DNA from: a virus | Direction: 5' to 3' (one strand) | DNA: 23,965 nt | Virus record (IMG/VR): IMGVR_UViG_3300009091_000060 | Coordinates: 1 to 23,965 of that record | In this document: positions 1-22,223 of the stretch, piece by piece | Layout of the letters: each line of letters begins with the position of its first letter | Numbering within the stretch: position 1 is the first letter of the stretch | Notes under the pieces: generated by a model | Seen by the model: only the letters and a program-made list of their open reading frames with translations | Told to the model about the DNA's origin: nothing | Databases searched by the model: none | Made by a program: the position numbers and the translations under genes

Positions 1-3000
1 CAGTAACAGTTACTGCTACTCCACTTCCTATAGTTATAGGTCCTACACTCATTGCATTTGTACCTGTAGCTATCGTATAATTAGTTGATATTGTAGTATT
101 ATTTATAATCAACCCATTTGAGGCAATTACTTCAGGTGCTGTTAGTTCCCCACTGGATGGGTTATATGTTAATTTAGTTGATGAAACATATGCTGTAGTT
201 AAGTTACCTGTTGTAGCATTAGAAAAAGTTGGATATCTGGTAGCATTAGTTGTTGTATCGTCAGTAATAGCTGCTCCAGAACTAACAGTAGCCCATTCCA
301 TAGCAGTTGCACCAGCATTAGTTCTTAATAATTGAAGACTAGTTCCCAGAGCAGTTAATCCAGTTCCTCCATTAGCAACTGTTAATGTTCCACCTAATGT
401 TAAGGTTCCTGTAGTAGTAATAGGACCACCAGTTAAGGTTAATCCTGTAGTTCCACCTGAACCGGTGATAGAATTTACTGTACCAATATCAATATGTTGA
501 AGTGCTGTGGTATGTGAATTACCATCAAAAAGATATATCCAATTAGTTAAGGAACCAACTTGGATAGGTGATGATTTATCTAGTATTGTTCCATCTCCTA
601 ATTGTCCATATACATTATGTCCCCAATTCCACAATGTTCCATCTGTTTTAATAGCTGTTGTGTAGGTATATCCACAAGATACCTGTGACCAATTAGATAA
701 AGAACCAATTTGGACTGGAGAGGATTTATCTAATATAGTTCCATCCCCAAGTTGACCAGCACTATTAGACCCCCAACTCCATAAAGTTCCATCTGTTTTA
801 ACTGATATCGTGTGGAAATATCCACAGGCTACTTGTTTCCAAGTAGTTAACGCACCGACTTGGATAGGACTTGATACACTAATATTTCCTTGTCCTAGTT
901 GGCCAAAATAGTTATCTCCCCAAGCCCACAACGTTCCATCTGTTTTAATAGCTGTTGAAAAATCGTATCCAGCAGTTGGTCGACTCCAGTCAGTTAATAA
1001 TCCAATTTGACCAGGAGTAGAGGTGCCACCAAATGTTCCATTACCTAATGATCCGAATGAGTTAGCCCCCCAAGACCATAAGGTTCCATCTGTTTGAGTA
1101 GCTAATGTAAACGCTCCACCACAAGATATATGCGACCAATTGGTAAAAGAACCAATTTGAATTGGAGAAGATTTAGAAACTAATGTTCCATCTCCTAATT
1201 GACCATTGTTGTTATGTCCCCAAGCCCATAATGTTCCGTTTGTTTTAATAGCAACAACATGATCTATACCACTAGAAATTCGTAACCAACTAGTTAAAGA
1301 ACCAATTTGGATAGGTGATGATTTATCAACTGTTGTTCCATCTCCTAGTTGACCAAAAGTATTATATCCCCAAGCCCAAAGTGTACCATCTGCTTTAATA
1401 GATGTTGTGTACATATATCCACAAGATACTTGTGACCAATTAGTTAATGAACCAATTTGAATAGGACTTGATTTTGGAATTGTTGTTCCATCACCTAGGT
1501 TTCCATAAAGATTAGCACCAAAAGTCCATAAAAAAGATAAATTGTTACTAACTATATTATTCCAAGTTGAAGATATCGTACCATAAGTTTCAATATTATT
1601 CAAATCTGTATTATAACGTAACATTCCACTAATTGGAGTCGGTCTTTGAACTGTTGTTCCAGTAGGAATTGTTACTGAACCTGTACCTGGTAATATAGCA
1701 TTATTTGCTATACCAATGGTTACAGTTCCTATTCCATGTGTTACAGTAGTTTGATTAGATACTCCTGAAATGGTTTTGTATTCAAGAGCAGTTACACCGT
1801 TATTAACACCGATAAGTTGATTTCCAGTTCCTAATGATGTTAATCCAGTTCCTCCATTAGCAATTGCTAAAGTTCCGCCTAATGTTAGTGTTCCTGATGA
1901 AGTTATAGGACCACCAGTTAAGGTTAATCCTGTAGTTCCACCTGATCCGTTAACTGAAGTGACTATACCAAATAATGGGCGTTGAATAGCAAATGTATTA
2001 ACAAATCGTGTAGATATTTGACTCCAATTAGTTAATGAACCAATTTGAATAGGAGAAGATTTCGGAACAATAGTTCCATCACCAAGTTGTCCATATCCAT
2101 CATTTCCCCAAGCCCAAAGAGTTCCATCATTTTTAATAGCTGTTGTTTGACTATATCCACAAGATATTTGATTCCAGTTTGTTAATGACCCAACTTGAAT
2201 AGGAGAAGATTTATCAACAAGAGTTCCATCACCAAGTTGGCCAAGTTGATTTCTTCCCCAAGCCCAAAGAGTTCCATCTGTTTTTAGAGCTGCTGAATCA
2301 TCAGTTCCTCCTGCTGCTTGTTTCCAATCAGTCAAAGAACCAATTTGAATAGGAGATGATTGTGGTATTTGTGTTCCATCACCAAGTTCTCCATAAAGAT
2401 TTCTTCCCCAACTCCATAAACTTCCGTTGGTTTTTATAGCTATTGTGTGTGTATGTCCACAAGCAATAGATTTCCAATCAGTCAAAGAACCAATTTGAAT
2501 AGGAGATGATTGTGGTGTTTGTGTTCCATCCCCAAGTTCTCCATAAAGATTTCTTCCCCAAGCCCAAAGTGTACCATCTGTTTTAATAGTTCCTATATGT
2601 GCATATCCGTTGGATACTTGTTTCCAATCAGTTAAAGAACCAATTTGAATAGGAGAAGATTTAGGAACAATAGTTCCATCACCAAGTTGTCCATTATTAT
2701 TATATCCCCAATTCCATAATGTTCCATCAGTTTTTATAGCAGATGAAAAAAGATATCCACAACTTACTTGTTTCCAATCAGTTAAAGAACCAATTTGAAT
2801 AGGAGATACTTGTGAGGTAGTTGTTCCATCACCCAATTCTCCATATATATTATATCCCCAACTCCAAAGAGTTCCGTCTGTCTTTATTGCTTCTGTGTTT
2901 AAATATCCACAAGCTATTTCTGACCAATTAGTTAAACTCCCTACTTGAATAGGAGAAGATTTAGGAACAATAGTTCCATCACCAAGTTGTCCATGAACAT

Positions 3001-6000
3001 TGTTTCCCCAACCAAATAATAAGTAGTTTGAATTATCAAGTGCTCCCCAATAAGCGTTTGTTCCACTAGTGGTTAATAATTTGCCAGAATTATTAAGTTG
3101 ACTTGGTTCTAATGCATTAAAAGCTATATTTGCTGTTGTTTGTCCAGTTCCTCCATTAGCAATTGCTAAAGTTCCGCCTAATGTTAGTGTTCCTGATGAA
3201 GTTATAGGACCACCAGTTAAGGTTAATCCTGTAGTTCCACCTGATCCGGATATAGAAGTTACAGTTCCTGTTCCAATTATAGGTTGTTGTAATGCCGCAA
3301 ATGTTTTAGCACTCTTAATAGAAAGTACTTTCCAATTAGTTAAAGAACCAATTTGAACTGGACTAGATCGGTTAATAGTATCTCCTAATCCAAGTTGTCC
3401 ATAATCATTTCCTCCCCAAGTCCATAAGGTTTTAGTATTTGTTGTAGCTATTATACTGGAATGTCCACAAGCTATCTGATTCCAATTAGTCAAAGAACCA
3501 ATTTGAATAGGAGAAGATTTAGGAACAATAGTTCCATCCCCAAGTTGACCTACATTGTTTTGTCCCCAAGTCCATAATGTTCCATCAGTTTTAATAGCTG
3601 CAAGAATATACCCACAAGAAATTTGTTTCCAATCAGTTAAACTCCCTACTTGAATAGGAGAAGATTTATTAACGCGTGTTCCATCACCAAGTGTACCATT
3701 AGCATTATACCCACAAGTCCAAAGAGTTCCATCTGTTTTTATAGCTAATGTAAAGTTACTACCACAAGCAATAGATTTCCAATCAGTTAAAGAACCAATT
3801 TGAATAGGAGAAGATTTTTTAATAATTGTTCCATCACCAAGTTGACCTTGAGAATTATATCCACAAGCCCACAATGTTCCATCAGTTTTTATAGCAGATG
3901 TAAACAATGATCCACAGTCTACTTGTTTCCAGTTTGTTAAAGTGCCAATTTGAATTGGAGATGAGTATGAAGTTGTTGTTCCGTCCCCAAGTTGTCCGTA
4001 TGTATTAATTCCCCAAGCCCAAAGAGTTCCATCAGTTTTAATAGCTGAAACACTATAACCTCCAACAGCACAAGAAATTTGTTTCCAATCAGTTAAAGAA
4101 CCAATTTGAATTGGAGATGATTTATTAATAGTTGTTCCATCACCAAGTGAACCATAATCATTTCTTCCCCAAGCCCAAAGTGTTCTATCAAGCTTTAAAG
4201 CTATTGTATAGATACCTCCACAAGCTACCTGTTTCCAATCAGTTAAAGAACCAATTTGAATAGGAGAAGATTTAGAAGTAGTTGTTCCATCTCCAAGTTG
4301 AGCATTAATATTATTTCCCCAAATCCACAGAGTGTAGAATTCTGTACTAATGTTATTCCAACTTAAGGTTGGCACATTATAAGTTTCAATGATATCTAAG
4401 TTTGTATTATATCTTAACATCCCTCCTGTTGGAATAGGTCTTTGAACTATTGTACCAGTTGGAATCGTTATTGAACCTGTACCTGGTAATATAGCATTAT
4501 CTGCTATACCAACATTTACAGTTCCTACTCCATGTGTTACAGTAGTTTGATTAGATACCCCTGAAATGGTTTTGTATTCAAGAGCAGTTGCACCATTATT
4601 AACACCGATAAGTTGATTTCCAGTTCCAAGTGATGTTAACCCAGTTCCTCCGTTAGCAACTATTAATGTTCCACCTAATGTTAAAGTACCAGTTGTAGTA
4701 ATAGTACCAGATAATGTTAATCCAGTTGTCCCACCAGAACCAGTTACAGAAGTAACTGTTCCTGTAGTAGGGGTATACCACTCTATCGCATTAACACCAG
4801 CATTAGTTCTCAAAGCTTGAAGACTAGTTCCAAGAACAGCCAATCCAGTTCCACCATTAGTATAAGCTAATGTTCCACCTAAAGTTAATGTACCTGTTGT
4901 AGTGATAGTACCAGTTAAAGTTAATCCAGTAGATCCACCTGAACCAGTTACGGAAGTAACAGTACCAACACTACCCCATTCTATTGCTGTAGCACCAGTA
5001 TTAGTTCTTAATACTTGAAGACTAGTTCCAAGAACAGCCAATCCAGTTCCACCATTAGTATAAGCTAATGTTCCACCTAATGTTAATGTACCAATATTAA
5101 TAATTGGACCACCAGTTAATGTTAATCCAGTAGTTCCACCAGAACCAGATATAGAAGTAACTGTACCATTACATACTCCACTACCATATCCTTGAATTTT
5201 AGATGGTGAAGTAGTCCAAGTACCAGCAGTAGTCTGTGTGGATTCTATATAGCCAACTACTCTAAAGGGTACATTTGTTCGGGATGTTGTTGAGTAAAAT
5301 GTTGTATTTGAGGATGAGCCAGAGGTAATAGCAGTAGTGCTTATTAATGTAGATTCATCTAAAAGAGTACCTCCAGATGCATTGATAACTGCAAGTTCTA
5401 CTGTTCCAGCATTGTCAATAGCAATTACCATTATATGGGATAATGTTGCATTAATAGTTCCAAGTGTTGCACCAGATGGAACTATTAATGCAATTGAACT
5501 ATTAACTAATCTAGTATTAGATACTCCTGATAAAAGAGATGAGTTACGAAAATCTAACACACAAGGACTCAATCCAACTGTCATAGCTGATGAACCCATA
5601 GTAGATGTTATAGAAAATATTTTACTAGTAGCTCCACCGGTATTGTAATTAACAGCATCAGCACCATTTATCAGTAATGCACCATTATTAATTCCTGATC
5701 TAATTCCTGTTGTTGATGTTGGCGGAATTGATATAGTAGGAAGCCATATTCTACTTTTTTGTGGTTTGAAGATTTGCCAAGGGTTTTCAGACAAGGAGGC
5801 AAGTAGATTAGAGTCTGTTTGTTTACCAATTCTTACCCATAAGGTATTTTCAGAATATGCATTAATATCATCTCCAGGATTCCAGCCCATAGCATGATTT
5901 CTACCAACTCCAGCATTATACCCTAAAGTATTGCTACCACTAGAAGTTCTACCTGTTACAGGACTTCCTCCTGAGTATATCTTCCAAGTAGACTGAGTAC

Positions 6001-6433
6001 GATTACCTAGACTACTAGCTACAACATTACTTTTAGCAGTAAATGTTTCAGTTAGCATTGTCCAAGACTCTCCTGTCCCTATATATATAGCAGTATTACG
6101 GCAATCAGTTCCGTAATAAACACCACCTGTAGAATAGGGACGCGTTCCTATACCAATCACATCTACAGTTATAGTTGTAAAGTCAATAGGAGCTTCGATA
6201 GAAGTAATTGGACGTAGAAGGATGGTACTTGCTACATATTGAGCCTTACCTGCTGCCTTTATTAAGGGGTTCATTGCATACCGAAATTGCAATTCCTTAC
6301 CATTTATATACTCATACCATATACCATTACAAAATACATGAGCATATGGAGCACCCTTAAATACAGGATGTGACCAATCAACAATAGCCTGTGTTTGTGG
6401 TTGTTGTATCCTTTTAGAAGGTAAAATTAACAT
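1..6433 (-). CDS. Giant tail fibre protein with three RCC1-like seven-repeat propellers (3' end off the left edge)
   Basis: The frame is open from an ATG at 6433 to the left edge, 2144 complete codons. Seen: residues 1-260 are a head domain I do not recognise, starting MLILPSKRIQ. Residues about 260-700 are fibre modules, including the phage-fibre motif FRVVGYIESTQ, NGGTGL linkers and an RP-P-GGMLRYN motif. RCC1-like arrays of seven repeats lie at about 699-1050, 1137-1485 and 1634-1980, with consensus TDGTLWAWG-N--GQLGDGT then SSPIQIGSLT-W. Fibre linkers separate the arrays. The last visible residues match the C-terminal tag of the 128-aa fibre at 7484-7870, so the gene probably ends within roughly ten codons beyond the window. 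Known: RCC1 repeats form seven-bladed beta-propellers. Inferred: a receptor-binding fibre with three propeller heads. No clear ribosome site is visible; the ATG lies four bases after the upstream stop, so coupled translation is likely. The fibre role is confident, the propeller target unknown. Confidence 0.88.
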   Translation of the reverse strand, partial: MLILPSKRIQQPQTQAIVDWSHPVFKGAPYAHVFCNGIWYEYINGKELQFRYAMNPLIKAAGKAQYVASTILLRPITSIEAPIDFTTITVDVIGIGTRPYSTGGVYYGTDCRNTAIYIGTGESWTMLTETFTAKSNVVASSLGNRTQSTWKIYSGGSPVTGRTSSGSNTLGYNAGVGRNHAMGWNPGDDINAYSENTLWVRIGKQTDSNLLASLSENPWQIFKPQKSRIWLPTISIPPTSTTGIRSGINNGALLINGADAVNYNTGGATSKIFSITSTMGSSAMTVGLSPCVLDFRNSSLLSGVSNTRLVNSSIALIVPSGATLGTINATLSHIMVIAIDNAGTVELAVINASGGTLLDESTLISTTAITSGSSSNTTFYSTTSRTNVPFRVVGYIESTQTTAGTWTTSPSKIQGYGSGVCNGTVTSISGSGGTTGLTLTGGPIINIGTLTLGGTLAYTNGGTGLAVLGTSLQVLRTNTGATAIEWGSVGTVTSVTGSGGSTGLTLTGTITTTGTLTLGGTLAYTNGGTGLAVLGTSLQALRTNAGVNAIEWYTPTTGTVTSVTGSGGTTGLTLSGTITTTGTLTLGGTLIVANGGTGLTSLGTGNQLIGVNNGATALEYKTISGVSNQTTVTHGVGTVNVGIADNAILPGTGSITIPTGTIVQRPIPTGGMLRYNTNLDIIETYNVPTLSWNNISTEFYTLWIWGNNINAQLGDGTTTSKSSPIQIGSLTDWKQVACGGIYTIALKLDRTLWAWGRNDYGSLGDGTTINKSSPIQIGSLTDWKQISCAVGGYSVSAIKTDGTLWAWGINTYGQLGDGTTTSYSSPIQIGTLTNWKQVDCGSLFTSAIKTDGTLWACGYNSQGQLGDGTIIKKSSPIQIGSLTDWKSIACGSNFTLAIKTDGTLWTCGYNANGTLGDGTRVNKSSPIQVGSLTDWKQISCGYILAAIKTDGTLWTWGQNNVGQLGDGTIVPKSSPIQIGSLTNWNQIACGHSSIIATTNTKTLWTWGGNDYGQLGLGDTINRSSPVQIGSLTNWKVLSIKSAKTFAALQQPIIGTGTVTSISGSGGTTGLTLTGGPITSSGTLTLGGTLAIANGGTGQTTANIAFNALEPSQLNNSGKLLTTSGTNAYWGALDNSNYLLFGWGNNVHGQLGDGTIVPKSSPIQVGSLTNWSEIACGYLNTEAIKTDGTLWSWGYNIYGELGDGTTTSQVSPIQIGSLTDWKQVSCGYLFSSAIKTDGTLWNWGYNNNGQLGDGTIVPKSSPIQIGSLTDWKQVSNGYAHIGTIKTDGTLWAWGRNLYGELGDGTQTPQSSPIQIGSLTDWKSIACGHTHTIAIKTNGSLWSWGRNLYGELGDGTQIPQSSPIQIGSLTDWKQAAGGTDDSAALKTDGTLWAWGRNQLGQLGDGTLVDKSSPIQVGSLTNWNQISCGYSQTTAIKNDGTLWAWGNDGYGQLGDGTIVPKSSPIQIGSLTNWSQISTRFVNTFAIQRPLFGIVTSVNGSGGTTGLTLTGGPITSSGTLTLGGTLAIANGGTGLTSLGTGNQLIGVNNGVTALEYKTISGVSNQTTVTHGIGTVTIGIANNAILPGTGSVTIPTGTTVQRPTPISGMLRYNTDLNNIETYGTISSTWNNIVSNNLSFLWTFGANLYGNLGDGTTIPKSSPIQIGSLTNWSQVSCGYMYTTSIKADGTLWAWGYNTFGQLGDGTTVDKSSPIQIGSLTSWLRISSGIDHVVAIKTNGTLWAWGHNNNGQLGDGTLVSKSSPIQIGSFTNWSHISCGGAFTLATQTDGTLWSWGANSFGSLGNGTFGGTSTPGQIGLLTDWSRPTAGYDFSTAIKTDGTLWAWGDNYFGQLGQGNISVSSPIQVGALTTWKQVACGYFHTISVKTDGTLWSWGSNSAGQLGDGTILDKSSPVQIGSLSNWSQVSCGYTYTTAIKTDGTLWNWGHNVYGQLGDGTILDKSSPIQVGSLTNWIYLFDGNSHTTALQHIDIGTVNSITGSGGTTGLTLTGGPITTTGTLTLGGTLTVANGGTGLTALGTSLQLLRTNAGATAMEWATVSSGAAITDDTTTNATRYPTFSNATTGNLTTAYVSSTKLTYNPSSGELTAPEVIASNGLIINNTTISTNYTIATGTNAMSVGPITIGSGVAVTVT
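494..1534 (-). repeat. RCC1-like array 3: seven repeats (last propeller in the protein)
   Basis: Seven repeats from SFLWTFGANLYGNLGDG to the closing strand HTTALQHI. The marker codon falls at 1499, 1349, 1199, 1049, 899, 752 and 602: steps of 150, 150, 150, 150, 147 and 150 bases. This array has the most divergent blades, including GSLGNGTFGG near 1040 and GQLGQGN near 890. Confidence 0.88.
1844..1949. repeat. 106-base perfect direct repeat, copy A (fibre linker)
   Basis: Identical base for base to 3143-3248, at an offset of 1299 bases (433 codons, in frame). It encodes the fibre linker around GGTTGLTLTGGPITSSGTL and TLGGTLAIANGGTG. It follows propeller 2 in the protein. The identity, including third codon positions, points to recent duplication or gene conversion. 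Confidence 0.93.
1979..3024 (-). repeat. RCC1-like array 2: seven repeats with exact 150-base period
   Basis: Seven repeats from YLLFGWGNN to the closing strand TFAIQRP. The marker codon in the GQLGDG or GELGDG motif falls at 2987, 2837, 2687, 2537, 2387, 2237 and 2087, so all six steps are exactly 150 bases. Long stretches of DNA between blades are nearly identical, for example the segment encoding SSPIQIGSLTDWKQ. This is the most regular of the three arrays. Confidence 0.9.
3143..3248. repeat. 106-base perfect direct repeat, copy B (fibre linker)
   Basis: Partner of 1844-1949. It follows propeller 1 in the protein. The two copies bracket propeller 2, so recombination between them would delete or duplicate a whole in-frame propeller unit of 433 codons. 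Confidence 0.93.
3284..4339 (-). repeat. RCC1-like array 1: seven repeats (first propeller in the protein)
   Basis: Seven repeats in coding order start near FYTLWIWGNN and end with a closing strand TFAALQQ. The equivalent codon in the G-x-LGDG motif falls at 4298, 4148, 3992, 3842, 3692, 3545 and 3395, giving steps of 150, 156, 150, 150, 147 and 150 bases (50, 52, 50, 50, 49, 50 codons). The last half-repeat supplies the strand that would close the ring, as in RCC1 propellers. The blade at 4148 has an S for the usual Q, and two blades carry WACGYN or WTCGYN in place of WAWG-N. Confidence 0.88.
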
Positions 6434-6437
6434 TATA

Positions 6438-6827
6438 TTATGCTATACTAGCAACTACTGATACAAATGCTTCTACAGTTACTGGTTGAACTGTATTACC
6501 AGTAAATTCTATTTCTAAGTGCATTATTTCAGGACCAAAGACATAGTTCCATTCACCAATAGTAGCTGCTGTTGTACCATTACCTACTGTATAAATAGTT
6601 TTCCAATCTGTACCAGCTGGGTTTGCTGTAGGTGTAGCTCCAGCATTATGAGCAATTAATAAATTAGCTACACATTGTAAGGTTGGACCTGTTCCACCAT
6701 TTATTATTTTGTAAGTTACAATACCACCAAGAGCAGTACGTAAATCTATTGCTCCTCTTGTAGTACTACCTGCTGCATTTGCCACTGACGCTACTAATGT
6801 CGTGACTGTTTTAGTTGCTGTTGCCAT
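6438..6827 (-). CDS. Small virion-type protein of unknown function in the fibre locus
   Basis: The 129-residue product is not a family I recognise. It is rich in Thr, Ala, Val and Gly and has alternating hydrophobic stretches suggesting a beta-sandwich: VTYKIINGGTG near residue 37, then EIMHLEIEFTG and VTVEAFVSVVAS at the C-terminus. No signal peptide, membrane segment or catalytic motif is visible. An AAAGGA ribosome site precedes the ATG. The stop lies four bases before the start of the giant fibre gene, so the two are probably translated together. Its place between fibre genes suggests a fibre-associated or decoration protein, but this is inference only. Confidence 0.8.
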   Translation of the reverse strand: MATATKTVTTLVASVANAAGSTTRGAIDLRTALGGIVTYKIINGGTGPTLQCVANLLIAHNAGATPTANPAGTDWKTIYTVGNGTTAATIGEWNYVFGPEIMHLEIEFTGNTVQPVTVEAFVSVVASIA

Positions 6828-6855
6828 ATTTAATTCCTTTATTACTAGGGTTGTA

Positions 6856-7473
6856 TTATTTATGTTCTAGTTTATATACCTTTGCAGATAACTCTTTAAT
6901 AGATTCAATTAAAAACCCAATAATTGCACTATATTCCACACTTAATACTCCTTCTGCATTTTTATGAACTATATGAGGCAACACTGTTTCAATTTGTTGT
7001 GCTATTACTCCATAAGATGGTATTCCTGTATCTTTCCAATTAAATGATACTCCTTCCATCTTGTTTACTATATCTAAACTATTTGTTAATAGAGTAATAT
7101 TAGTTTTTAAAGTTTCGTCAGATGTATTGACGAATGTTGTTGCAGTTACTGTACCAGTTGAAGGATTATATGTTAATTTAGTTGATGAAGTATAAGTATT
7201 TAAAAGATGTCCAGTTGTACTATCAGCAAATGTTAGGTAACGAGTAGAATTTGTAGTATTATCATCAGTTAAAGTAGGAGCACCTCCACCTATTGGAAAA
7301 TTAACTATTCCACTAGGGTCTACAGTCATAATATCTTGTGTAGTGTTCCCAACATTACCTCTCGATAATTTCATTGTTCCATCTGGTATAGTTGGAACAG
7401 TAAACACAAAGTTCTGAGTGGTATTTGTACTATCACCTATTTGTAATCTACTTATAGTTAGTTGACCAGCCAT
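6856..7473 (-). CDS. Tail fibre/spike protein with C-terminal S74 intramolecular chaperone
   Basis: This 205-residue protein has a short N-terminal fibre part (residues 1-110) and a C-terminal S74 (endosialidase-type) chaperone domain from about 118. Seen: the S-D-x-x-x-K signature SDETLKTNI with Ser118 and Lys123; the GVIAQQIETVLP motif; and the terminal helix VEYSAIIGFLIESIKEL. Known: this domain trimerises and helps a fibre fold, then cuts itself off just before the serine. Both key residues are present, so self-cleavage is likely intact. If cleaved, only about 117 residues remain in the virion, a very short mature fibre. An AAAGGA ribosome site precedes the ATG. It is co-directional with and close to the 128-aa fibre upstream. 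Confidence 0.88.
   Translation of the reverse strand: MAGQLTISRLQIGDSTNTTQNFVFTVPTIPDGTMKLSRGNVGNTTQDIMTVDPSGIVNFPIGGGAPTLTDDNTTNSTRYLTFADSTTGHLLNTYTSSTKLTYNPSTGTVTATTFVNTSDETLKTNITLLTNSLDIVNKMEGVSFNWKDTGIPSYGVIAQQIETVLPHIVHKNAEGVLSVEYSAIIGFLIESIKELSAKVYKLEHK
6857..6864 (-). promoter_or_regulatory. Possible T4-type late promoter, CATAAATA (7 of 8)
   Basis: The minus strand reads CATAAATA, one base off the T4 late octamer, 30 bases upstream of the 6827 start codon. It overlaps the stop codon of the upstream S74 fibre gene. In such AT-rich DNA a 7-of-8 match can arise by chance, so this is only a candidate. Confidence 0.3.
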
Positions 7474-7483
7474 TTATATTCCT

Positions 7484-7870
7484 TTAGTGTATTATTGTCC
7501 ATACTGACCCGTTTGGTACTGTTACAATAACCCCACTATTAATTGTTATTGGACCCGCAGACATAGCATTTTTATTTGTAGTTATTGTATAATTAGTAGT
7601 TACAGTTGTGTCATTTTCATAAAATACTTTATCAGTACCACCTCCAACAGGAACATTACCACCTGTTCCCCCACTTAAACTAATCCAAGAACCGTTAACA
7701 TACCCTTCAATAACAGGAGTAGCATCTGTATTATAACGTATCATACCAGCAATAGGTGTTCCACGTTGTGCTACTGTACCGGATGGTAAAACTAAGGCAC
7801 CTGTTCCACCAATAGTTATATTACCAGTATTGTCAGGTATGATAATTTCAAAACTATAATCAAAGTCCAT
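7484..7870 (-). CDS. Short tail-fibre tip protein
   Basis: This 128-residue protein consists only of fibre modules. Residues about 22-60 match the motif seen in the larger fibres here: GALVLPSGT, then RGTPIAGMIRYNTD, then NGSWISL. The C-terminus has NAMSAGPITINSGVIVTVP followed by NGSVWTIIH, a tag common at the ends of phage fibres. The same tag closes the visible part of the giant fibre at the left edge. AAAGGA lies upstream of the ATG. It could be a stand-alone tip, a fibre-assembly partner, or the remnant of a longer fibre whose middle has been lost. Its role as a fibre component is likely, the exact job unknown. Confidence 0.78.
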   Translation of the reverse strand: MDFDYSFEIIIPDNTGNITIGGTGALVLPSGTVAQRGTPIAGMIRYNTDATPVIEGYVNGSWISLSGGTGGNVPVGGGTDKVFYENDTTVTTNYTITTNKNAMSAGPITINSGVIVTVPNGSVWTIIH

Positions 7871-7885
7871 TTTTATCCTTTAATA

Positions 7886-10800
7886 TTAGTTAGTTACTTC
7901 AGATGTGATTACTGTTGCCACCCAACGAATTGTTTTTGTTAATTCACCTGTTACTACTAATTTTAATGAACCATTTGTAGTGTCTGCTGATAAAACAATA
8001 TCCCAACCAGCATTTGTTTCACCAAGAATTACTTTTGATGGTGTACCAATAGTTGTTAAAGATGCTGAGGTTGCATCTTTACGTAATGCCCCCTCAAGTC
8101 TATAACTTGCTCCACCACCAACTACATCAGTTCTGCGAGCAGCCACTAAAATACTGAATGTCCATACAGAATTATTTGGAACAATAAGACGTTGGGAACC
8201 AGCAGTTCCATCTAAAAATAATTCTAATGGGGTAGCGTCAACTGTTATATTACGAAGAACATATAATCCAGATTGAGCATCACCAGCCGTAGCAAATTTA
8301 CCATTAGCATATGCTTTACCACCCCATATTCCTTGTCCTGTACCATCACCATTAGCATATGATCCAATACCTGATGCTGTTGAACCACTTCCAACAGCTA
8401 TTGAATTTGCTGCTGAAGCTACTGGAGTTGTTGGAGTGCTTGGATTTTCTGTATACAATTTAATAGGTAGATCAGCATATGCTAATGAACGGAAAGCTGG
8501 AGTACCAGTTGTACCATTTGGTGAAGCAAACACTAAATTAGTGGTTTGTGTATTAAATACAGCTGTTAATGTTCCTGTTGTAGTTACAGTTGCTGTAGTA
8601 ACATTAAAAATACTTGGTAATGATAAACCAACAGAAGTAACACCAGCATTTGTATATGTTACAGAACCATTTCCATAAGCAACAGACATACCTGTTCCAG
8701 CTAATTCAATAGGAGCTGTAGTATACCATTGTGTAGTAGAAGAAGCTACAACAGTAAGAGAAGCACCAACTGGTAATACAACAGGATTATTTGTACCAGC
8801 TGCATCAATTGTACCACTTACTGCAGGATAAACATTAACAGGATTTGCACCTTTATTAACAATCATTACTTCCCAACCAGCTAATGCTGGAGTTGGTAAT
8901 GCAACTCCAGTTCCTGATGCTGCAACTGTAATTATATTGTAAGATGCTGTTAATGCAGTTGCAGTACCTTGTGTTGTTCCAGATGCAGTTATTGTTGATG
9001 AGGTTGATTGATATAAACCAGTTGTTACTTGAACTGAACCAGGAGCAACAAATGTACTTGGTATACTTGCTGTAACACTACCAGTTGCAGCAGATACTGT
9101 AACTTGATTTGCTGTTCCAGCTAGTGATGTTACACCAGTGTTTACTATTGTAATTGAACCAGCACCATTAGTAATTGTAATGCCTGCACCTTGTGTCAAT
9201 GTTGCTGCAACAGGTGCTGCCCCTGTTGAACCAATTAATAATTGACCATTTGTTGGTGCAGTAGTTGTAGTTAATAATCCAGCTGTTCCAGAATACAAAA
9301 ATGAGTTTTCAGTTAATCCAGAAACTGTTAATCCAGTTGTGATAGTAACAGAATTAGGTAAACTTAATGTAACACCACCTGTTGAAGTTGATGCTGTAAT
9401 TTGGTTTGTTGTACCTGTAATAGATGTAACACCAGTATTGGTATATGTTACTGTACCATTACTATAAGCAACAGATAAACCTGTTCCTGCTGCTTCAATT
9501 TCAACAGTTGTAAACCATTGAGTTGAAGAAGTTGATGTAACATAAACACCAGCACTAACTGGTAAAGTAATACCAAGATTTGTTGCTAATCCGTCAATTG
9601 CACCACCAGATGCTGGATATACAACAATTGGATTTGCACCTCTATTAACAACAGATACCATCCAACCAGCTAATGATGGAACTGGTAATATAACTCCAGT
9701 TCCTGCTGCAGCAGTTGTAACAACATTAAATGAAGCAGTTAATGGTGTAGCTGTACCTTGATTTGTACCAGCAGCAGATATTGCTGCTGATGTTGATACA
9801 TAAAAACCTGTTGTTGCTTGGATTGATCCAGGAGCAACAAAGGCAGATGGAATACTAAAACCAAGAGTACCTGTACCATTAGTAAGAGTAATTTGATTTG
9901 CTGTCCCTGAAAAGGTTTTATATTCAAGAGCAGTTCCACCATTATTCATACCAAGAATTTGGTTTCCTGTACCGTATGCACTTAATCCTGTACCACCATT
10001 TACAGCAGCTACTGGAGTAACTAATACAATAGTATTACCTTGATATGTTAATCCATTACCAACTAATACAGATCCAGGACCAGCAATTTCTGCCCAAGTA
10101 AATGTTGTATTATTGTACAAATAAGTATGGCTATAATGTAAACTAGATGTAGCATTAGCTAGAACTGTAATACCATTTAGCATTGTATTACCAGCAGATG
10201 TTGCAATACCATCAGGTTCAGACCAATTTGATGCTGTTGTTAAGTCTGTTCCGATATAAGCACCAACCATTATCCATTGAATTAAGTCAGATTTATCTAA
10301 TGCTGTACCACTAACTGTCATACCTGTTAATGATGTATCAACTGTATAAGCAGTACCAACTTCACCAGCAATAATAAATCTATCACCAGTTGCTAATGTT
10401 TTTAATTTAACCCAAGCTGTACCAGACCATTCTACAATATCACCAACTGCAACACCTAATACTCCCCAAGTACCAACTGTATTAACAATATATGAAAGTT
10501 TAGTAACAGGAGAACCTGGAGCAGCTGCTAAAATACCCATTAAATCTGGTGTTACAATTGGATTACGCCATTTAGTACCAGAACTTACAGCATTATCCAC
10601 ATATGCTCTTGTAGCAGCATCCGACGCTGCTGCTGGAGCAGCCAATCCAGTAACTGTACCAGCAGAGAATGTTAATGTACCGGACATTGTATCACCAGCT
10701 TTATTAACTGGAGTATATGTTAATGCACCTGTAATATCACTAGCACTAACTGCAAGATTATTGGTAACACGTCCAAAACTATCTAATGCAACTCTTACAA

Positions 10801-11338
10801 ACGAAGTACCTGTTGTACCTTGAGTAACTCCTGCCAAGTTAATAGTAGGAGCACCAGCAACACCATCTCCATCAGTAACAGCAATATTACTTGCTGTACC
10901 AGCAATAGTTCTTGGAATATATGTAGCAGTATTAGTTCTTGCCACTAATCCTGTGGTGGCTAATGCTGCTAAAGCGTTTAATTCGGTGTTTAATGCTAAA
11001 TGAATATTACCAGCTGTAGTAATTGGTGAACCACTAACAACTGTTAAACCTGTTGTAGTATCTGATGTAATAGCAACACTAGTTACTGTAGCAGAACCAG
11101 CAGCAAGAGCTGTCCAAGTACCATTATAGAATTCTAATCCAGATGCGGTACTATTGTAACGAAGCATACCATTTACTGGTGTACCAGGACGATCTGTTGT
11201 ATTATTACCAGATGGTAGTTTTAATGCCCCTGCCCCTGTAATAGATAAAATACCTGTTGTGGCTGTTAATGGGGAAGCAACTGTGGTATCGATAACGAGT
11301 AATGAGGTAATACTACCAATGTCGTGGTCAAAATTCAT
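7886..11338 (-). CDS. Long modular tail fibre protein (1150 aa)
   Basis: The N-terminus (MNFDHDIGSITSLL) leads into a GALKLPSGN module with RPGTPVNGMLRYNS. Residues about 220-400 contain GDTMSGTLTF and ATRAYVDNAV, typical of phage fibres, and a region with FIIAGEVGTAYTVD. A domain starting FVAPGS occurs twice (near 500 and 763), 263 residues apart. The C-terminal 190 residues form a tip domain with GDAQSGLYVLR, ELFLDGT, RLIVP--SVWTF, ARRTD and KTIRWVATV. This tip is shared with the next gene upstream (11399-12037). There are many VTS-x-x-GT-NQ linkers, as in trimeric beta-structured fibres. The ribosome site AAGGAC lies about 12 bases before the ATG. A fibre is near certain; which tail position it occupies is unknown. 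Confidence 0.9.
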   Translation of the reverse strand: MNFDHDIGSITSLLVIDTTVASPLTATTGILSITGAGALKLPSGNNTTDRPGTPVNGMLRYNSTASGLEFYNGTWTALAAGSATVTSVAITSDTTTGLTVVSGSPITTAGNIHLALNTELNALAALATTGLVARTNTATYIPRTIAGTASNIAVTDGDGVAGAPTINLAGVTQGTTGTSFVRVALDSFGRVTNNLAVSASDITGALTYTPVNKAGDTMSGTLTFSAGTVTGLAAPAAASDAATRAYVDNAVSSGTKWRNPIVTPDLMGILAAAPGSPVTKLSYIVNTVGTWGVLGVAVGDIVEWSGTAWVKLKTLATGDRFIIAGEVGTAYTVDTSLTGMTVSGTALDKSDLIQWIMVGAYIGTDLTTASNWSEPDGIATSAGNTMLNGITVLANATSSLHYSHTYLYNNTTFTWAEIAGPGSVLVGNGLTYQGNTIVLVTPVAAVNGGTGLSAYGTGNQILGMNNGGTALEYKTFSGTANQITLTNGTGTLGFSIPSAFVAPGSIQATTGFYVSTSAAISAAGTNQGTATPLTASFNVVTTAAAGTGVILPVPSLAGWMVSVVNRGANPIVVYPASGGAIDGLATNLGITLPVSAGVYVTSTSSTQWFTTVEIEAAGTGLSVAYSNGTVTYTNTGVTSITGTTNQITASTSTGGVTLSLPNSVTITTGLTVSGLTENSFLYSGTAGLLTTTTAPTNGQLLIGSTGAAPVAATLTQGAGITITNGAGSITIVNTGVTSLAGTANQVTVSAATGSVTASIPSTFVAPGSVQVTTGLYQSTSSTITASGTTQGTATALTASYNIITVAASGTGVALPTPALAGWEVMIVNKGANPVNVYPAVSGTIDAAGTNNPVVLPVGASLTVVASSTTQWYTTAPIELAGTGMSVAYGNGSVTYTNAGVTSVGLSLPSIFNVTTATVTTTGTLTAVFNTQTTNLVFASPNGTTGTPAFRSLAYADLPIKLYTENPSTPTTPVASAANSIAVGSGSTASGIGSYANGDGTGQGIWGGKAYANGKFATAGDAQSGLYVLRNITVDATPLELFLDGTAGSQRLIVPNNSVWTFSILVAARRTDVVGGGASYRLEGALRKDATSASLTTIGTPSKVILGETNAGWDIVLSADTTNGSLKLVVTGELTKTIRWVATVITSEVTN
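8632..9052 (-). repeat. Internal domain duplication in the 1150-aa fibre, copy 2
   Basis: Encodes residues about 763-902, starting FVAPGSVQVTTGLY and running through LAGWEVMIVNKGANPVNVYP to TQWYTT and VTYTNAGVTS. It pairs with 9421-9841 at an offset of 789 bases (263 codons). The protein similarity is obvious but the DNA has diverged, so the duplication is older than the RCC1 linker repeat. Confidence 0.85.
9421..9841 (-). repeat. Internal domain duplication in the 1150-aa fibre, copy 1
   Basis: Encodes residues about 500-640, starting FVAPGSIQATTGFY and running through LAGWMVSVVNRGANPIVVYP to TQWFTT and VTYTNTGVTS. It is the partner of 8632-9052. Confidence 0.85.
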
Positions 11339-11379
11339 AATGAATTGTCCTTAATAATAAGTTTTGGTTTATATAAGTA

Positions 11380-11387
11380 TATTTATC
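11380..11387 (-). promoter_or_regulatory. Possible T4-type late promoter, GATAAATA (7 of 8)
   Basis: The minus strand reads GATAAATA in the 60-base gap before the 1150-aa fibre gene, 42 bases upstream of its ATG. One base differs from the T4 late octamer. This gap has no terminator-like hairpin, so read-through from the upstream gene is also possible. Confidence 0.35.
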
Positions 11388-11398
11388 CACAAAGAACA

Positions 11399-12037
11399 TT
11401 AATTAGTAACTTCAACTGTTTCTACCATAGCAACCCATCTAATAGTTTTTCCATTTTGACCTGTACAAGTTATTGTTAATGAACCATTAGTTGTATCTGC
11501 ATATAATTTGATTCCCCAAGCAAAATTATTTCTTGCTATTGTCGATGTGGAAGGACGACCCTGAAAAGATACAGAAGCATTTCCAGCTATTCTATATATT
11601 ACACCTTCAAATGAAAATCCAGCATGTCCGTCACTTATATCTGTTCTATGTCCTGTTATTATACCTCTAAATGTCCAAGTTGAATCATCTGGTAATACTA
11701 ACCGTTTTGTTCCTCCTGTACCATCTATAAACAATTCTGTTTCTGTACTATTTGTAGTATGGCTTCTTAATAGATATTTTCCAGTTTGAGCATCTCCCGA
11801 TGAAGCAAATCTACCACTTGCTTGAACAACTCCACCAGGTATACGTGCTAATGATTGTTCTCCAATTGCTAAAGAATTTGTAGCTGAAACAGCTGTTTGA
11901 GCCCCTGATCCTAAAACAATAGAATTACTACCTACTGGACTTGGTGGTATTACTGTACCTATATTTTCTTTATAAAGAATAAGATTTGAGGATGAGCCAG
12001 GTAAACCAGCTGTTGATTGTGCTATTATGACACCCAT
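11399..12037 (-). CDS. Tail fibre protein sharing a tip domain with its neighbour
   Basis: A 212-residue protein. After a short N-terminus (MGVIIAQSTAGLPGSSSN), almost all of it aligns with the C-terminal 190 residues of the 1150-aa fibre. Shared landmarks in order: LYKEN versus LYTEN, an S-IVLGSG or S-IAVGSG motif, GDAQTGKYLLR, ELFIDGT, RLVLP--STWTF, HRTD, DTTNGSLTI, GKTIRWVA and a final EVTN. It is therefore a stand-alone copy of the fibre tip. It could form its own short fibre, or compete with or cap the long one. A TATAAATA late promoter lies 24 bases upstream of the start, followed by an AAGGGAG ribosome site. It is the first gene of the leftward fibre operon. Confidence 0.87.
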   Translation of the reverse strand: MGVIIAQSTAGLPGSSSNLILYKENIGTVIPPSPVGSNSIVLGSGAQTAVSATNSLAIGEQSLARIPGGVVQASGRFASSGDAQTGKYLLRSHTTNSTETELFIDGTGGTKRLVLPDDSTWTFRGIITGHRTDISDGHAGFSFEGVIYRIAGNASVSFQGRPSTSTIARNNFAWGIKLYADTTNGSLTITCTGQNGKTIRWVAMVETVEVTN

Positions 12038-12114: not shown

Positions 12115-12693
12115 ATGGCTCACAAAATCATATCTGTTCATTTTACATCATCAGGTATTCCTGTAACAGGATTATCTCCTGTCATCAACATCTATGAACT
12201 AAATTTAACCAATTCAGCCTTAAATCCGTTAGTGGTAACAAATGGAACAACAGTTGAGATTGGTACTGGATGGTATCGCTATGATTTTTTAACATATGAT
12301 CCAACAAAAAATTATGTGTATACTTTTGATGGTGGTATTTCATTATCAATGGGAGAAAGATATAAAATAGGAGGAAATGAAAGTTATGTTGAAGATATTT
12401 CATCAGGAGTATGGGATGAGCCAACATTATCTCATTTAGGATTAGGAACTACCGGATTTACTTTAACACAAATTCAAACAGATACTAGTACAGTATCTAT
12501 TAGTCAAACTACTATATTAACATTACTCAATACTTTATTAAAATATGAACGTAATAGAACTAAAATTGATATTCCAACTGCTACATTAACCATTTATGAT
12601 GATAATGGAACAACAGTTCTAACCACTTTTAATTTATTAGACCATTTAGGTAACCCAAGTGTAAGTGAAGTTTGTGAAAGATCGCCTATATGA
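12115..12693 (+). CDS. Putative virion structural protein, 3' end altered by HNH gene insertion
   Basis: A 192-residue product. It has an N-terminal beta-rich part (MAHKIISVHFTSSGIPVTG, then GWYRYDF near residue 60), a YVEDISSGVWDEP motif near 90, a helical stretch of Thr/Ile/Leu around 115-145, and a C-terminal beta part with TLTIYDDNGTT. The GVWDEP-type motif followed by TLTIYD-DG recurs in phage structural proteins of unknown role, which is my recollection of the group. The protein ends VCERSPI, while the original ending (VCERVPI) is now the tail of the endonuclease gene downstream. Its stop overlaps that gene's ATG in ATGA. Probably a baseplate or fibre-related component; no precise function can be assigned. 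Confidence 0.78.
   Translation: MAHKIISVHFTSSGIPVTGLSPVINIYELNLTNSALNPLVVTNGTTVEIGTGWYRYDFLTYDPTKNYVYTFDGGISLSMGERYKIGGNESYVEDISSGVWDEPTLSHLGLGTTGFTLTQIQTDTSTVSISQTTILTLLNTLLKYERNRTKIDIPTATLTIYDDNGTTVLTTFNLLDHLGNPSVSEVCERSPI
12670..12689 (+). repeat. Left copy of the short duplication flanking the HNH gene
   Basis: A 20-base block matching 13380-13399 at 18 of 20 positions, at an offset of 710 bases. It encodes VCERSPI at the end of the 12115 gene. Confidence 0.85.
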
Positions 12694-13403
12694 ATTATAC
12701 TAAAATATATACATCATTAATAGACAATAGACAATTGTTATATTTTGATAGAAAACAACTTAAAAAACAAAAATTGGAATACTATGAACATCATCATATT
12801 ATTCCAAGATGTATGAATGGGAATAATAATATTAAAAATCTTGTTTATTTAACTGCTAGAGAACATTTTTTAGCACATTGGTTATTATGGAAAATATATA
12901 GAACAAAACAATTAGCATATGCTTTTATTCGAATGTCTACTAATAAAAATATACGAATAACAGGTAAGCAATATGAAATAACAAGAAAAATCAGGAGTGA
13001 AGTATATTCTGGAGAAAATTCTCCTAAAGGATTTAAAGGAAAACATCATACCAATGAAGTAAAACAACGACAAAGTGTGTCAAAAATAGGGGTAAAAAAT
13101 CCAATGTTTGGATTAGGAGAAAATCATCCAAACTGTAAACGAGTTGGGGAATTAAATCCAAATTTTGGGTTATTGCCTTGGAAAAATCCTAGTGTATTAA
13201 GAACACCATCTGCTATAAACATATGGAATAATCGAGATATATTATATCAAACTTGGATACAATTAAATAAACCACATTGGTATAAATTTGGGAAAGAAGC
13301 TATTTATTATTTTGATACCAATGGATATGAGTATATTCCACATAGTTTTCGAAAAATGGTTAATTGGTTTGAAAAATCAGTTTGTGAAAGAGTGCCTATT
13401 TAA
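12690..13403 (+). CDS. HNH homing endonuclease with NUMOD-type repeats
   Basis: A 237-residue protein. Residues about 32-63 form an HNH nuclease core: the EHHHIIPR motif with His34-His36, Asn50 in NIKNLVYLT, and His59 and His63 in REHFLAH. Residues about 108-160 hold repeated G-x-N-P-x-F-G motifs (GVKNPMFG, GELNPNFG), like the NUMOD3 DNA-binding modules of homing endonucleases. Known: such genes nick a target site and spread by recombination. Here the coding sequence starts inside the stop of the 12115 gene (ATGA) and ends with VCERVPI, a captured copy of that gene's own ending. Its stop overlaps the next start (TAATG). Most likely a free-standing homing gene; there is no extra non-coding DNA of the kind an intron would bring. 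Confidence 0.88.
   Translation: MNYTKIYTSLIDNRQLLYFDRKQLKKQKLEYYEHHHIIPRCMNGNNNIKNLVYLTAREHFLAHWLLWKIYRTKQLAYAFIRMSTNKNIRITGKQYEITRKIRSEVYSGENSPKGFKGKHHTNEVKQRQSVSKIGVKNPMFGLGENHPNCKRVGELNPNFGLLPWKNPSVLRTPSAINIWNNRDILYQTWIQLNKPHWYKFGKEAIYYFDTNGYEYIPHSFRKMVNWFEKSVCERVPI
13380..13399 (+). repeat. Right copy of the short duplication flanking the HNH gene
   Basis: Matches 12670-12689 with two differences. It encodes VCERVPI in the frame of the endonuclease and is followed at once by TAATG, the start of the next gene. It is probably the original 3' end of the 12115 gene. Confidence 0.85.
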
Positions 13404-20140: not shown

Positions 20141-21541
20141 TTATTGTGGAACTGTCATAAACTCACCCAACCCTTGGGTAATACTTCCACCGAATCCCCC
20201 ACCAATCATTCCACTTGTATTTTGAGAACTTAATGGATCACAATTATTTTGACCAGGAATTGGTGAGCCAAACGGACTAATACCGTGGGTATTTGGACCT
20301 TGTGTAGCTGAAGCGGCATCGTTATATCGTAATTGATAAAAGGCATCACGTTGAGCACTACGAAATGTTTGGTCTAATGCTCTCATTTCTGTAGTTTCAA
20401 CAAATACAGTATCATAAGCAAATGTGATTGATAATTCATTACCTTCATTGCCAACTGACATATCAACATCATCAGGAATTAGTGTTGTTATACGAGGGTT
20501 AAGAAAATGATATACATTAACCATTGCTCCATTATTATAAACATGATATAATATAATTTCTTTAAATATACCTTGTTTATTATCGTTATTTAACGGTCCT
20601 AACGAAGCAGCATATCTATTTGTTTTTATTGGCATTCCTTCAGCATCTAATGACATATTATCTTTAAAACTCATTCCTAATTGTTCAAAAGCATCTTGAG
20701 TTGGAGATTGTTGGGGGGTCATATTAGCAATTGGGGTCATTGCTTTAAGATATGCTGTATAAAATTGTATGGCATTATTTAATATATCATCGTGAAATGA
20801 CATATTCATTTCATCAAATTCAGTTTTTGTTATTAATTTTGTTCTATAGTTATAATAATTAACTGGTTCTGTTTGGTATGTAATTTTAGGACGAGAAGAC
20901 TTTTTAACCACAAAAGCCATTCCTCTCATTATTTCATCTAATTCACTATATCCAGCAGCAGTTACAAATTGAACCATAAACAAGAATTTATATTTAGGTG
21001 CTCTTGCTATAAGGTCTATAGCATAGGGAGATGCTTCACAAGCAGGAGTTAATGAATTTAATCTATCACTTCCAGGTGTATAGATTCCTCGAGCTAATCT
21101 TTCTAAATTTTGAAAATCTTGAAGGTAGTATGGAATATCAGTGGCTTTAAAATGTCCTTGTTGAACTTGTTGATAAATTTGTTGAGCTTGACCCCAAGCC
21201 TGATTAGCTATTTGTGGGTTTAGACCTTGTAGGGATTGTATTAAGGTTGGAGCAATTCCTATATTACTTAATATCCAATTAGCACCTTGATCTAAACTAT
21301 CACCTATAATAGTTGGTAGAGAGCCACATCCAGTTCTAATTGAATTTGAAACACTAGCAACAGTACGTAATCCAGTACCAATGGAACCTGCTCCAATACT
21401 ATTTAAAACTTGGAGGTCACCTATTTTTCCAATAGCGTTTCCAAAATCACGTCTGTTAGAAACAGCACTACCTATATCAGCTCTACTTTTAGATGCGTAG
21501 GCTGCTGGACAAGGTTTAACAGAAAAAGTTCGTGGATCCAT
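20141..21541 (-). CDS. Tail-tube-like structural protein, possibly baseplate/tube junction
   Basis: A 466-residue protein. Residues 1-165 are Gly/Ser/Ala/Gln-rich and helical, with GQAQQIYQQVQQGHFKATDI near 117. Residues about 183-395 look like a tail-tube fold: KYKFLFMVQFVTAAGY, FVVKKSSRPKITYQTEPVNY, YNYRTKLITKTEFDEMNMSF and later LSITFAYDTVFVET. The RP-x-x-x-Y...YYNYRTK pattern is typical of tube and tube-initiator proteins of contractile phages. The last 70 residues are Gly/Asn/Ser-rich and likely flexible. Position just after gp19 would suggest the portal in T4 order, but no portal features are seen. Possibilities: a gp48/gp54-type tube cap or initiator, or another virion protein. It has its own late promoter and an AAGGAAG ribosome site. 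Confidence 0.62.
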   Translation of the reverse strand: MDPRTFSVKPCPAAYASKSRADIGSAVSNRRDFGNAIGKIGDLQVLNSIGAGSIGTGLRTVASVSNSIRTGCGSLPTIIGDSLDQGANWILSNIGIAPTLIQSLQGLNPQIANQAWGQAQQIYQQVQQGHFKATDIPYYLQDFQNLERLARGIYTPGSDRLNSLTPACEASPYAIDLIARAPKYKFLFMVQFVTAAGYSELDEIMRGMAFVVKKSSRPKITYQTEPVNYYNYRTKLITKTEFDEMNMSFHDDILNNAIQFYTAYLKAMTPIANMTPQQSPTQDAFEQLGMSFKDNMSLDAEGMPIKTNRYAASLGPLNNDNKQGIFKEIILYHVYNNGAMVNVYHFLNPRITTLIPDDVDMSVGNEGNELSITFAYDTVFVETTEMRALDQTFRSAQRDAFYQLRYNDAASATQGPNTHGISPFGSPIPGQNNCDPLSSQNTSGMIGGGFGGSITQGLGEFMTVPQ

Positions 21542-21635: not shown

Positions 21636-22223
21636 TTACATTGCCCCCGCACCACCAGTAGCAATACCTTTACCCTGTTTATATCCACCAAGAAATTGAC
21701 GAGCATGATCATAACTAATGGTAAGTTCGATTTCAACAGGATCACCTGTTTCATATGCCAACTCTCCCCAATTATTATCTTCAATCCAACATCCTTCAAC
21801 AGTCCATTTTTCGATTACTTGGTCATTACCATCTAATTGGTCAAGATATGTAACAAATTTGTAAAGTGAACCTTCTCCTGCAGATGCTAACCATTGTCCT
21901 TCAGCACCAACTAACCATTGTTGTTTTTGTAATTGTGCTTGAATAACTCTTGATGCTGTACCTGTAACATCATCTTGAACTGTAAGAGCCATTGTTTCCC
22001 AAGAATGCTTGGCAGCAATATATGCTACAGAATTATAACGATGTAAAGTGACTTTCTCAAATTTTAAATGTGGTCGATTTACTTTAGTTGATTGCATTGA
22101 AACTGGTTGACTATCAAATCCGCCTCCCATGTTGGCGAATGTAACTCTCCAACGGTTCTTTGCTTTTGGGTGTAAGATACCTGTTCCTACTCCTGGGATA
22201 CCTATGTCATTAATTGTACTCAC
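21636..22223 (-). CDS. gp19: Tail tube protein (T4 gp19-like)
   Basis: A 195-residue protein with the conserved T4-type tube pattern: NRWRVTFANMGG near 23, VNRPHLKFEKVTLHRYNS near 48, AAKHSWE, LTVQDDVTG, RVIQAQLQKQQWLVGAEGQW near 92, FVTYLDQLDGN, EGCWIEDNNWG and a terminal ISYDHARQFLGGYKQG. Known: six copies per ring stack to form the inner tube through which DNA leaves the head. I chose the GTG at 22223 because AAAGGAGA lies a good distance before it; the first in-frame ATG is far inside the protein. The Gly/Ala-rich tail (GIATGGAGAM) extends slightly beyond the conserved core. It lies 26 bases after the sheath gene and is followed by a strong terminator. Confidence 0.95.
   Translation of the reverse strand: MSTINDIGIPGVGTGILHPKAKNRWRVTFANMGGGFDSQPVSMQSTKVNRPHLKFEKVTLHRYNSVAYIAAKHSWETMALTVQDDVTGTASRVIQAQLQKQQWLVGAEGQWLASAGEGSLYKFVTYLDQLDGNDQVIEKWTVEGCWIEDNNWGELAYETGDPVEIELTISYDHARQFLGGYKQGKGIATGGAGAM

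Follow-up and report, generated by a model that had tools for sequence, protein, structure and literature searches.

Three predicted RCC1-type propellers in a fibre-type chain of a putative large contractile-tailed phage

A fibre-type protein encoded in a viral DNA fragment displays a composite architecture in which three sets of seven RCC1 repeats alternate with ordinary fibre modules. Profile searches, structure prediction and superposition on known RCC1 rings support the presence of three closed seven-bladed propellers in this one chain. We consider it probable (about 0.68) that the rings serve as multivalent adhesin heads in the fibre shaft and bind the host via a variable face. Built into a tail fibre, three RCC1 rings would point to the virion exterior and to host binding, a role that can be tested.

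Chain architecture and predicted ring folds

The window, that is, the whole stretch of DNA analysed, is a linear viral fragment of 23,965 bases. The fibre frame exits its left end without a stop codon before the contig end. The features of the chain and its gene cluster are listed below.

2..6433, minus strand: fibre gene, a single open frame, 2144 aa read, stop codon past the contig end
5684..6433, minus strand: N-terminal region, aa 1-250, without a Pfam or PHROG match
4343..5683, minus strand: fibre shaft, aa 251-697, repeated TVTSxxGSGGTTGLTLTGG modules and a GxMLRYNT module immediately before ring 1
3284..4339, minus strand: ring 1, aa 699-1050, seven RCC1 repeats, joint model
3026..3283, minus strand: linker between rings 1 and 2, aa 1051-1136, a fibre module
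1973..3025, minus strand: ring 2, aa 1137-1487, seven RCC1 repeats, joint model
1538..1972, minus strand: linker between rings 2 and 3, aa 1488-1632, fibre modules, the final one common to ORF 7484-7870
485..1537, minus strand: ring 3, aa 1633-1983, seven RCC1 repeats, own model
2..484, minus strand: C-terminal fibre region, aa 1984-2144, modules also in the S74 ORF and ORF 7484-7870
6438..12037, minus strand: rest of the fibre cluster, ORFs 6438-6827, 6856-7473 (S74 chaperone domain), 7484-7870, 7886-11338 and 11399-12037

About 9-11 aa are absent from the C-terminus of the chain. Its last 33 aa resemble the end of ORF 7484-7870 (73% over 33 aa), which continues for about 10 residues, and its C-terminus stops no more than 9 positions short of where phrog_34255 and phrog_5342 end. 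Because it aligns so near to these three ends, the chain is nearly complete. An exact pattern search of the viral contig collection returned no contig overlapping the missing C-terminus. At the other end, the N-terminal region has only distant kin (24-31%), in other viral contigs.

Two readings give the same repeat count. Exactly 21 RCC1 repeats are recognized by PF00415, each at 35-56 bits and all above the curated cut-off, in groups of seven at window positions 4330-3299, 3019-2012 and 1531-500. For the whole protein the E-value is 1.3e-228, and a chance match is therefore excluded. A motif scan likewise yields 21 repeat starts (aa 702-1003, 1139-1439 and 1635-1934), with a spacing of nearly always 50 aa. 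The arrangement of 21 repeats as 7 + 7 + 7 in one open frame, described in an earlier note made from the sequence alone, is thereby reproduced, also by the profile search that the note had proposed. The strands TFAALQQ, TFAIQRP and HTTALQ, which it had taken for an additional closing half-repeat at the end of each set, instead make up, in the Pfam register, the latter half of repeat 7. The chain is also matched by PF25390, the RCC1-like domain (RLD).

Structural models extend this picture to the fold. Ring 3, predicted on its own with AlphaFold2 from 88 aligned sequences, reached a pLDDT of 95.4 and a pTM of 0.92, with 27 strands listed. Foldseek placed it at TM 0.88-0.91 to the UVR8, RCC1 and HERC2 rings, and VIA-align gave Z 53.5 against 7q40_C (rmsd 1.5 A over 350 residues) and Z 53 against HERC2 RLD2. 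The first and last strands of the model are the longest (E6-13 and E348-355), which would be in keeping with their pairing to close the ring. Rings 1 and 2 were modelled jointly with their linker from a shallow alignment of 12 double-ring proteins, which yielded a pLDDT of 71, a pTM of 0.49 and very low confidence in the linker. Within that model, ring 1 scored Z 47.3 against 7q40_C (rmsd 1.8, 352 residues aligned), and ring 2 scored Z 46.0 against 4o2w_A and 45.5 against human RCC1 (1i2m_D). Ring closure was judged by full-length superposition on closed rings, and both halves of the joint model superpose over their entire length on closed RCC1 rings. The closed ring of seven four-stranded blades that characterizes an RLD is predicted for ring 3 and, with lower model confidence, for rings 1 and 2. 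The earlier proposal of three folded, closed propellers is supported by these models, at that reduced confidence for the first two rings.

The same superpositions bear on a role in which the rings would act as BLIP-II-like inhibitors, disarming a secreted host enzyme at the cell surface. BLIP-II is itself an RCC1-type ring with seven blades and a tight binder of a protein target, and its fold does match (Z 31.9). However, BLIP-II is a compact ring of about 270 residues of which only about 262 align, whereas the rings here comprise about 350 residues and match the 350-residue RCC1/HERC2 type far better (Z 53.5), so that we regard such inhibition as very unlikely. The match to RCC1 proper is one of fold, and the fibre context makes a role as Ran exchange factor or in chromatin binding unlikely.

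Exact sevens are ordinary for the RCC1 family. A viral sample of 80 contigs, retrieved with the three rings as query, contained 129 uncut RCC1 arrays. Multiples of seven account for 122 of them (94.6%; 117 arrays of 7, three of 14, one of 21 and one of 42), a share somewhat inflated by a ranking that favours full seven-repeat matches to the query, although that ranking does not account for the runs of 14, 21 and 42. In bacterial loci retrieved likewise, the figure was 61 of 105 arrays. Since viral arrays keep to multiples of seven, the argument that exact sevens reflect functional rings, made in the earlier note, holds. An independent Pfam count gave 21 repeats in contig L042 (one ORF of 1075 aa), 14 in L055, 28 in L011 and 56 in L064.

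Phage RCC1 genes are widespread, with 59 GenBank phage records and at least 590 viral stretches. Among 18 RCC1 contigs tested, eight have a match to terminase or tail sheath, so that at least these eight derive from tailed phages. Several large arrays stood out among the collected loci. A single ORF in L035 (2953-9378) holds 42 contiguous repeats, equivalent to six rings without linkers, and the ORF in L042 (1010-4234) holds 21, equivalent to three. In L017, an ORF of 1771 aa (2008-7320) starts with an N-terminal seven-repeat ring followed by some 1400 aa of short degenerate repeats (TGSGxIxTSGAA). Clostridioides phage LIBA6276 of C. difficile (L113, 6576-11459) encodes a 1627-aa RCC1 protein with many divergent repeats between tail-fibre and endolysin genes.

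Fibre context and assembly of the ring region

The chain combines shaft modules of tail-fibre proteins with a position in a fibre gene cluster, and is assigned to the tail fibres on both grounds. Its linker modules (TVTSxxGSGGTTGLTLTGG..., GxMLRYNT...) are present in 120 ORFs of other viral contigs. Five of six such ORFs examined matched tail-fibre families in PHROGs, one of them also head-decoration families, and Pfam, applied to eight, placed an S74 chaperone at the end of two. The description of the linkers between the sets as ordinary fibre linkers is consistent with this recurrence in tail-fibre ORFs. A tblastn search of the fibre linker against GenBank phages returned no match at 1e-5, perhaps owing to low-complexity masking. 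None of the 120 module-bearing ORFs contains RCC1, and none of the sampled RCC1 ORFs contains the linker modules. RCC1 rings inside such a fibre are therefore rare in the data searched. RCC1 is also absent from the fibre neighbours found via ORF 6438-6827 (L089-L095).

The nearest relatives of the tail sheath and terminase (44-49%) are those of the large Xanthomonas and Stenotrophomonas phages XacN1, CM1 and RAS14, and the terminase search matched only two viral contigs (L114 and L115). Several neighbouring genes merit a separate description. ORFs 7886-11338 and 11399-12037 end in a common domain (45% over 192 aa), which points to duplication of modules in the fibre cluster. On the plus strand, 12690-13403 combines a weak NUMOD3 match (E 0.004) with an HNH-like motif and is probably a free-standing homing endonuclease adjoining the fibre cluster. 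Further along, 20141-21541 and 21636-22223 are adjacent, different ORFs, each with a match to tail-tube family phrog_4542; the larger, at 466 aa, is of unusual length.

The fibre context also bears on the function commonly attached to these proteins. Phage RCC1 proteins are annotated as "chromosome condensation" proteins, and DNA packaging has been proposed for them. In this reading, the rings would bind or organize DNA in the capsid, as the authors working on phAPEC6 suggested (PMC7247149) and as a paper on phage W70 repeated (PMC11370258). Beyond those suggestions, the reading draws on annotation by name. The rings described here lie within a fibre chain, among modules of tail-fibre proteins, and in other phages, too, RCC1 repeats belong to tail fibres or are encoded next to fibre genes; in S-SRM01, for example, RCC1 genes adjoin baseplate-wedge and long-tail-fibre genes. 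Owing to this context, a DNA role is disfavoured for this protein, and we consider it highly improbable.

Given that the fragment is an assembled contig, the joints between rings require attention. A 106-bp exact direct repeat flanks ring 2, with copies at 3143-3248 (minus strand, linker 1-2) and 1844-1949 (minus strand, linker 2-3), and a 67-bp exact repeat occurs in the shaft (4816-4882 and 5014-5080). Both could mislead short-read assembly, and a mis-join at the 106-bp repeat could have placed ring 2 in line. The true ring number would then differ, the assembly having joined or split the chain at this repeat. Against this stand arrays that diverge by 29-33% in DNA, so that none is a copy of another, an open frame that is continuous over every joint, and an even GC content along rings and linkers (0.35-0.38). 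A different ring number is consequently improbable, and ring 2 likely lies in line within the chain. An assembly duplication of the arrays themselves, which the earlier note had named as grounds for abandoning its proposal, is rejected on the same DNA identity of 67-71%. The 106-bp repeat, apart from being an assembly hazard, is a possible recombination site for gaining or losing rings.

The variable ring face and a proposed mode of action

The blades of the three rings are about equally related within and between rings, with identities of 0.601 and 0.599. Whole-ring duplication was considered as their origin and set aside, for blades in register across rings are barely closer (0.62) than those off register (0.595). 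Judged by blade sequences, the pattern fits shuffling or homogenization among rings more than duplication of a finished ring.

Variation within the blade is partitioned among the loops. Most hypervariable positions lie in the S1-S2 and S3-S4 loops, and the S2-S3 and S4-S1 loops are conserved. Judging from strand order, the variable loops would share one face of the ring, since S1-S2 and S3-S4 project to the same side of an antiparallel blade. Loop entropy in this gene is 1.50 bits on the variable face versus 0.32 bits on the conserved face (permutation p 0.007), and the same contrast appears among 964 viral blades (2.19 versus 0.82 bits, p 0.003). In bacterial RCC1 repeats it is weaker (p 0.07), with mostly the same top positions. 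Because bacterial repeats vary mostly at the same loop positions, the variable face may stem from the fold rather than from phage adhesion. In the three S1-S2 loop columns that vary most, dN/dS reaches 1.76 versus 0.52 overall, an excess that is suggestive only, as the sites are near saturation and belong to repeats.

This partition is relevant to a further reading, in which the rings would serve as bulky spacers or would stick non-specifically to particles, mucus or biofilm, and receptor binding would take place elsewhere, for instance in an S74-matured tip protein. The rings are internal and not C-terminal, a neighbouring gene encodes an S74 fibre, and stand-alone RCC1 genes occur as clusters of several genes per phage, all of which would suit such a function. 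Pfam detected no S74 chaperone (PF13884) in the fibre chain, which lacks only the few residues at its end; the domain resides in the separate ORF 6856-7473, so the chain does not have the C-terminal S74 of a fibre matured in this way. Nonetheless, a scaffold that is conserved while most of its variable positions gather on one face is more in keeping with a specific interface than with a passive spacer. We regard the spacer role as unlikely, though it is the most credible of the alternative functions considered.

Adhesin heads with a variable binding face would operate as follows. The gene product would be a fibre chain attached to the tail or baseplate of a large contractile-tailed phage, in which ordinary shaft modules are interspersed with three RCC1-type beta-propellers as side modules. 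Each ring is closed and both of its ends should sit together, so that its insertion would leave the shaft continuous. Binding to a host surface component (a glycan, an S-layer or a protein) would fall to loops S1-S2 and S3-S4, which share one face of each ring; the opposite face has conserved loops. Several rings per chain, times three chains if the fibre is a trimer, would add avidity. Blades may be shuffled or homogenized among rings, and recombination between the near-identical linkers may add or remove whole rings.

Trimerization, and hence nine rings per fibre, is presumed here. The fullest version of this model, a trimeric fibre with nine RCC1 side lobes in which blades shuffle and rings move as linker cassettes, so that recombination would generate a combinatorial host-binding surface while the scaffold stays fixed, is offered as a tentative and rather speculative possibility.

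Relation to known phage and cellular propellers

The earlier note supposed a multivalent adhesin of this kind to be undescribed. As stated, that supposition is not supported, given that phage RCC1 genes are common and that multi-ring chains, RCC1 proteins in virions and trimeric propeller-bearing receptor-binding proteins are known. By mass spectrometry, RCC1 proteins were found in virions of GAP32 (PMC5259590) and W70 (PMC11370258). Stand-alone phage RCC1 proteins (phrog_4219, phrog_7220, phrog_16766; GAP32 gp1, W70_237-239, phAPEC6, S-SRM01) belong to the same repeat family and form the same seven-bladed ring, but mostly consist of one ring of about 380-410 aa without shaft modules. Several rings per chain, as here, occur in cyanophage BUCT-ZZ01 (14 repeats), L042 (21), L035 (42) and LIBA6276 (1627 aa). 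In these proteins, however, the rings follow one another directly, and such fibre linkers were not detected.

RCC1 repeats within a tail-fibre or tail protein are found in two cultured Pseudomonas phages, PollyC (gp12) and Littlefix (gp88). In the PollyC fibre, RCC1 repeats are combined with a weak T7-fibre N-terminal match. In both proteins just three repeats each reach the PF00415 search threshold, and both are divergent (26-29% identity). No prior report of RCC1 rings in phage fibres was found in the open-licence literature, where a mention of Littlefixvirus (PMC12309495) is unrelated to RCC1.

Other propellers offer structural parallels. Gp45 of phi11, for which a structure has been solved, forms a trimer whose three five-bladed propellers are proposed to hold a GlcNAc site (PMC4901313). 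As in the fibre chain, the propeller sits between shaft-like parts of a phage receptor-binding chain, yet it is five-bladed, not of RCC1 type and present once per chain, and Gp45 was not among the fold-search matches listed for the rings. The C-terminal domain of phiKZ gp131 (4GBF), from a jumbo phage, forms a seven-bladed propeller that sits at the periphery of the baseplate; receptor binding or cell-surface degradation is its speculated function (PMC4901313). It provides a single propeller and resembles the rings much less (Z 16.3, 11% identity) than RCC1 types do (Z 53). Human RCC1, HERC2 RLD2 and UVR8 have the same fold (Z 49-54, 25-30% identity) and are cellular proteins with unrelated roles.

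The RCC1 family, its ring, multi-ring chains, virion RCC1 proteins and propeller-bearing trimeric receptor-binding proteins are thus already known. The combination of three RCC1 rings and intervening fibre modules in one chain is an unusual arrangement, unseen elsewhere in the data searched, and would represent a modular route to multiply binding heads on a single fibre.
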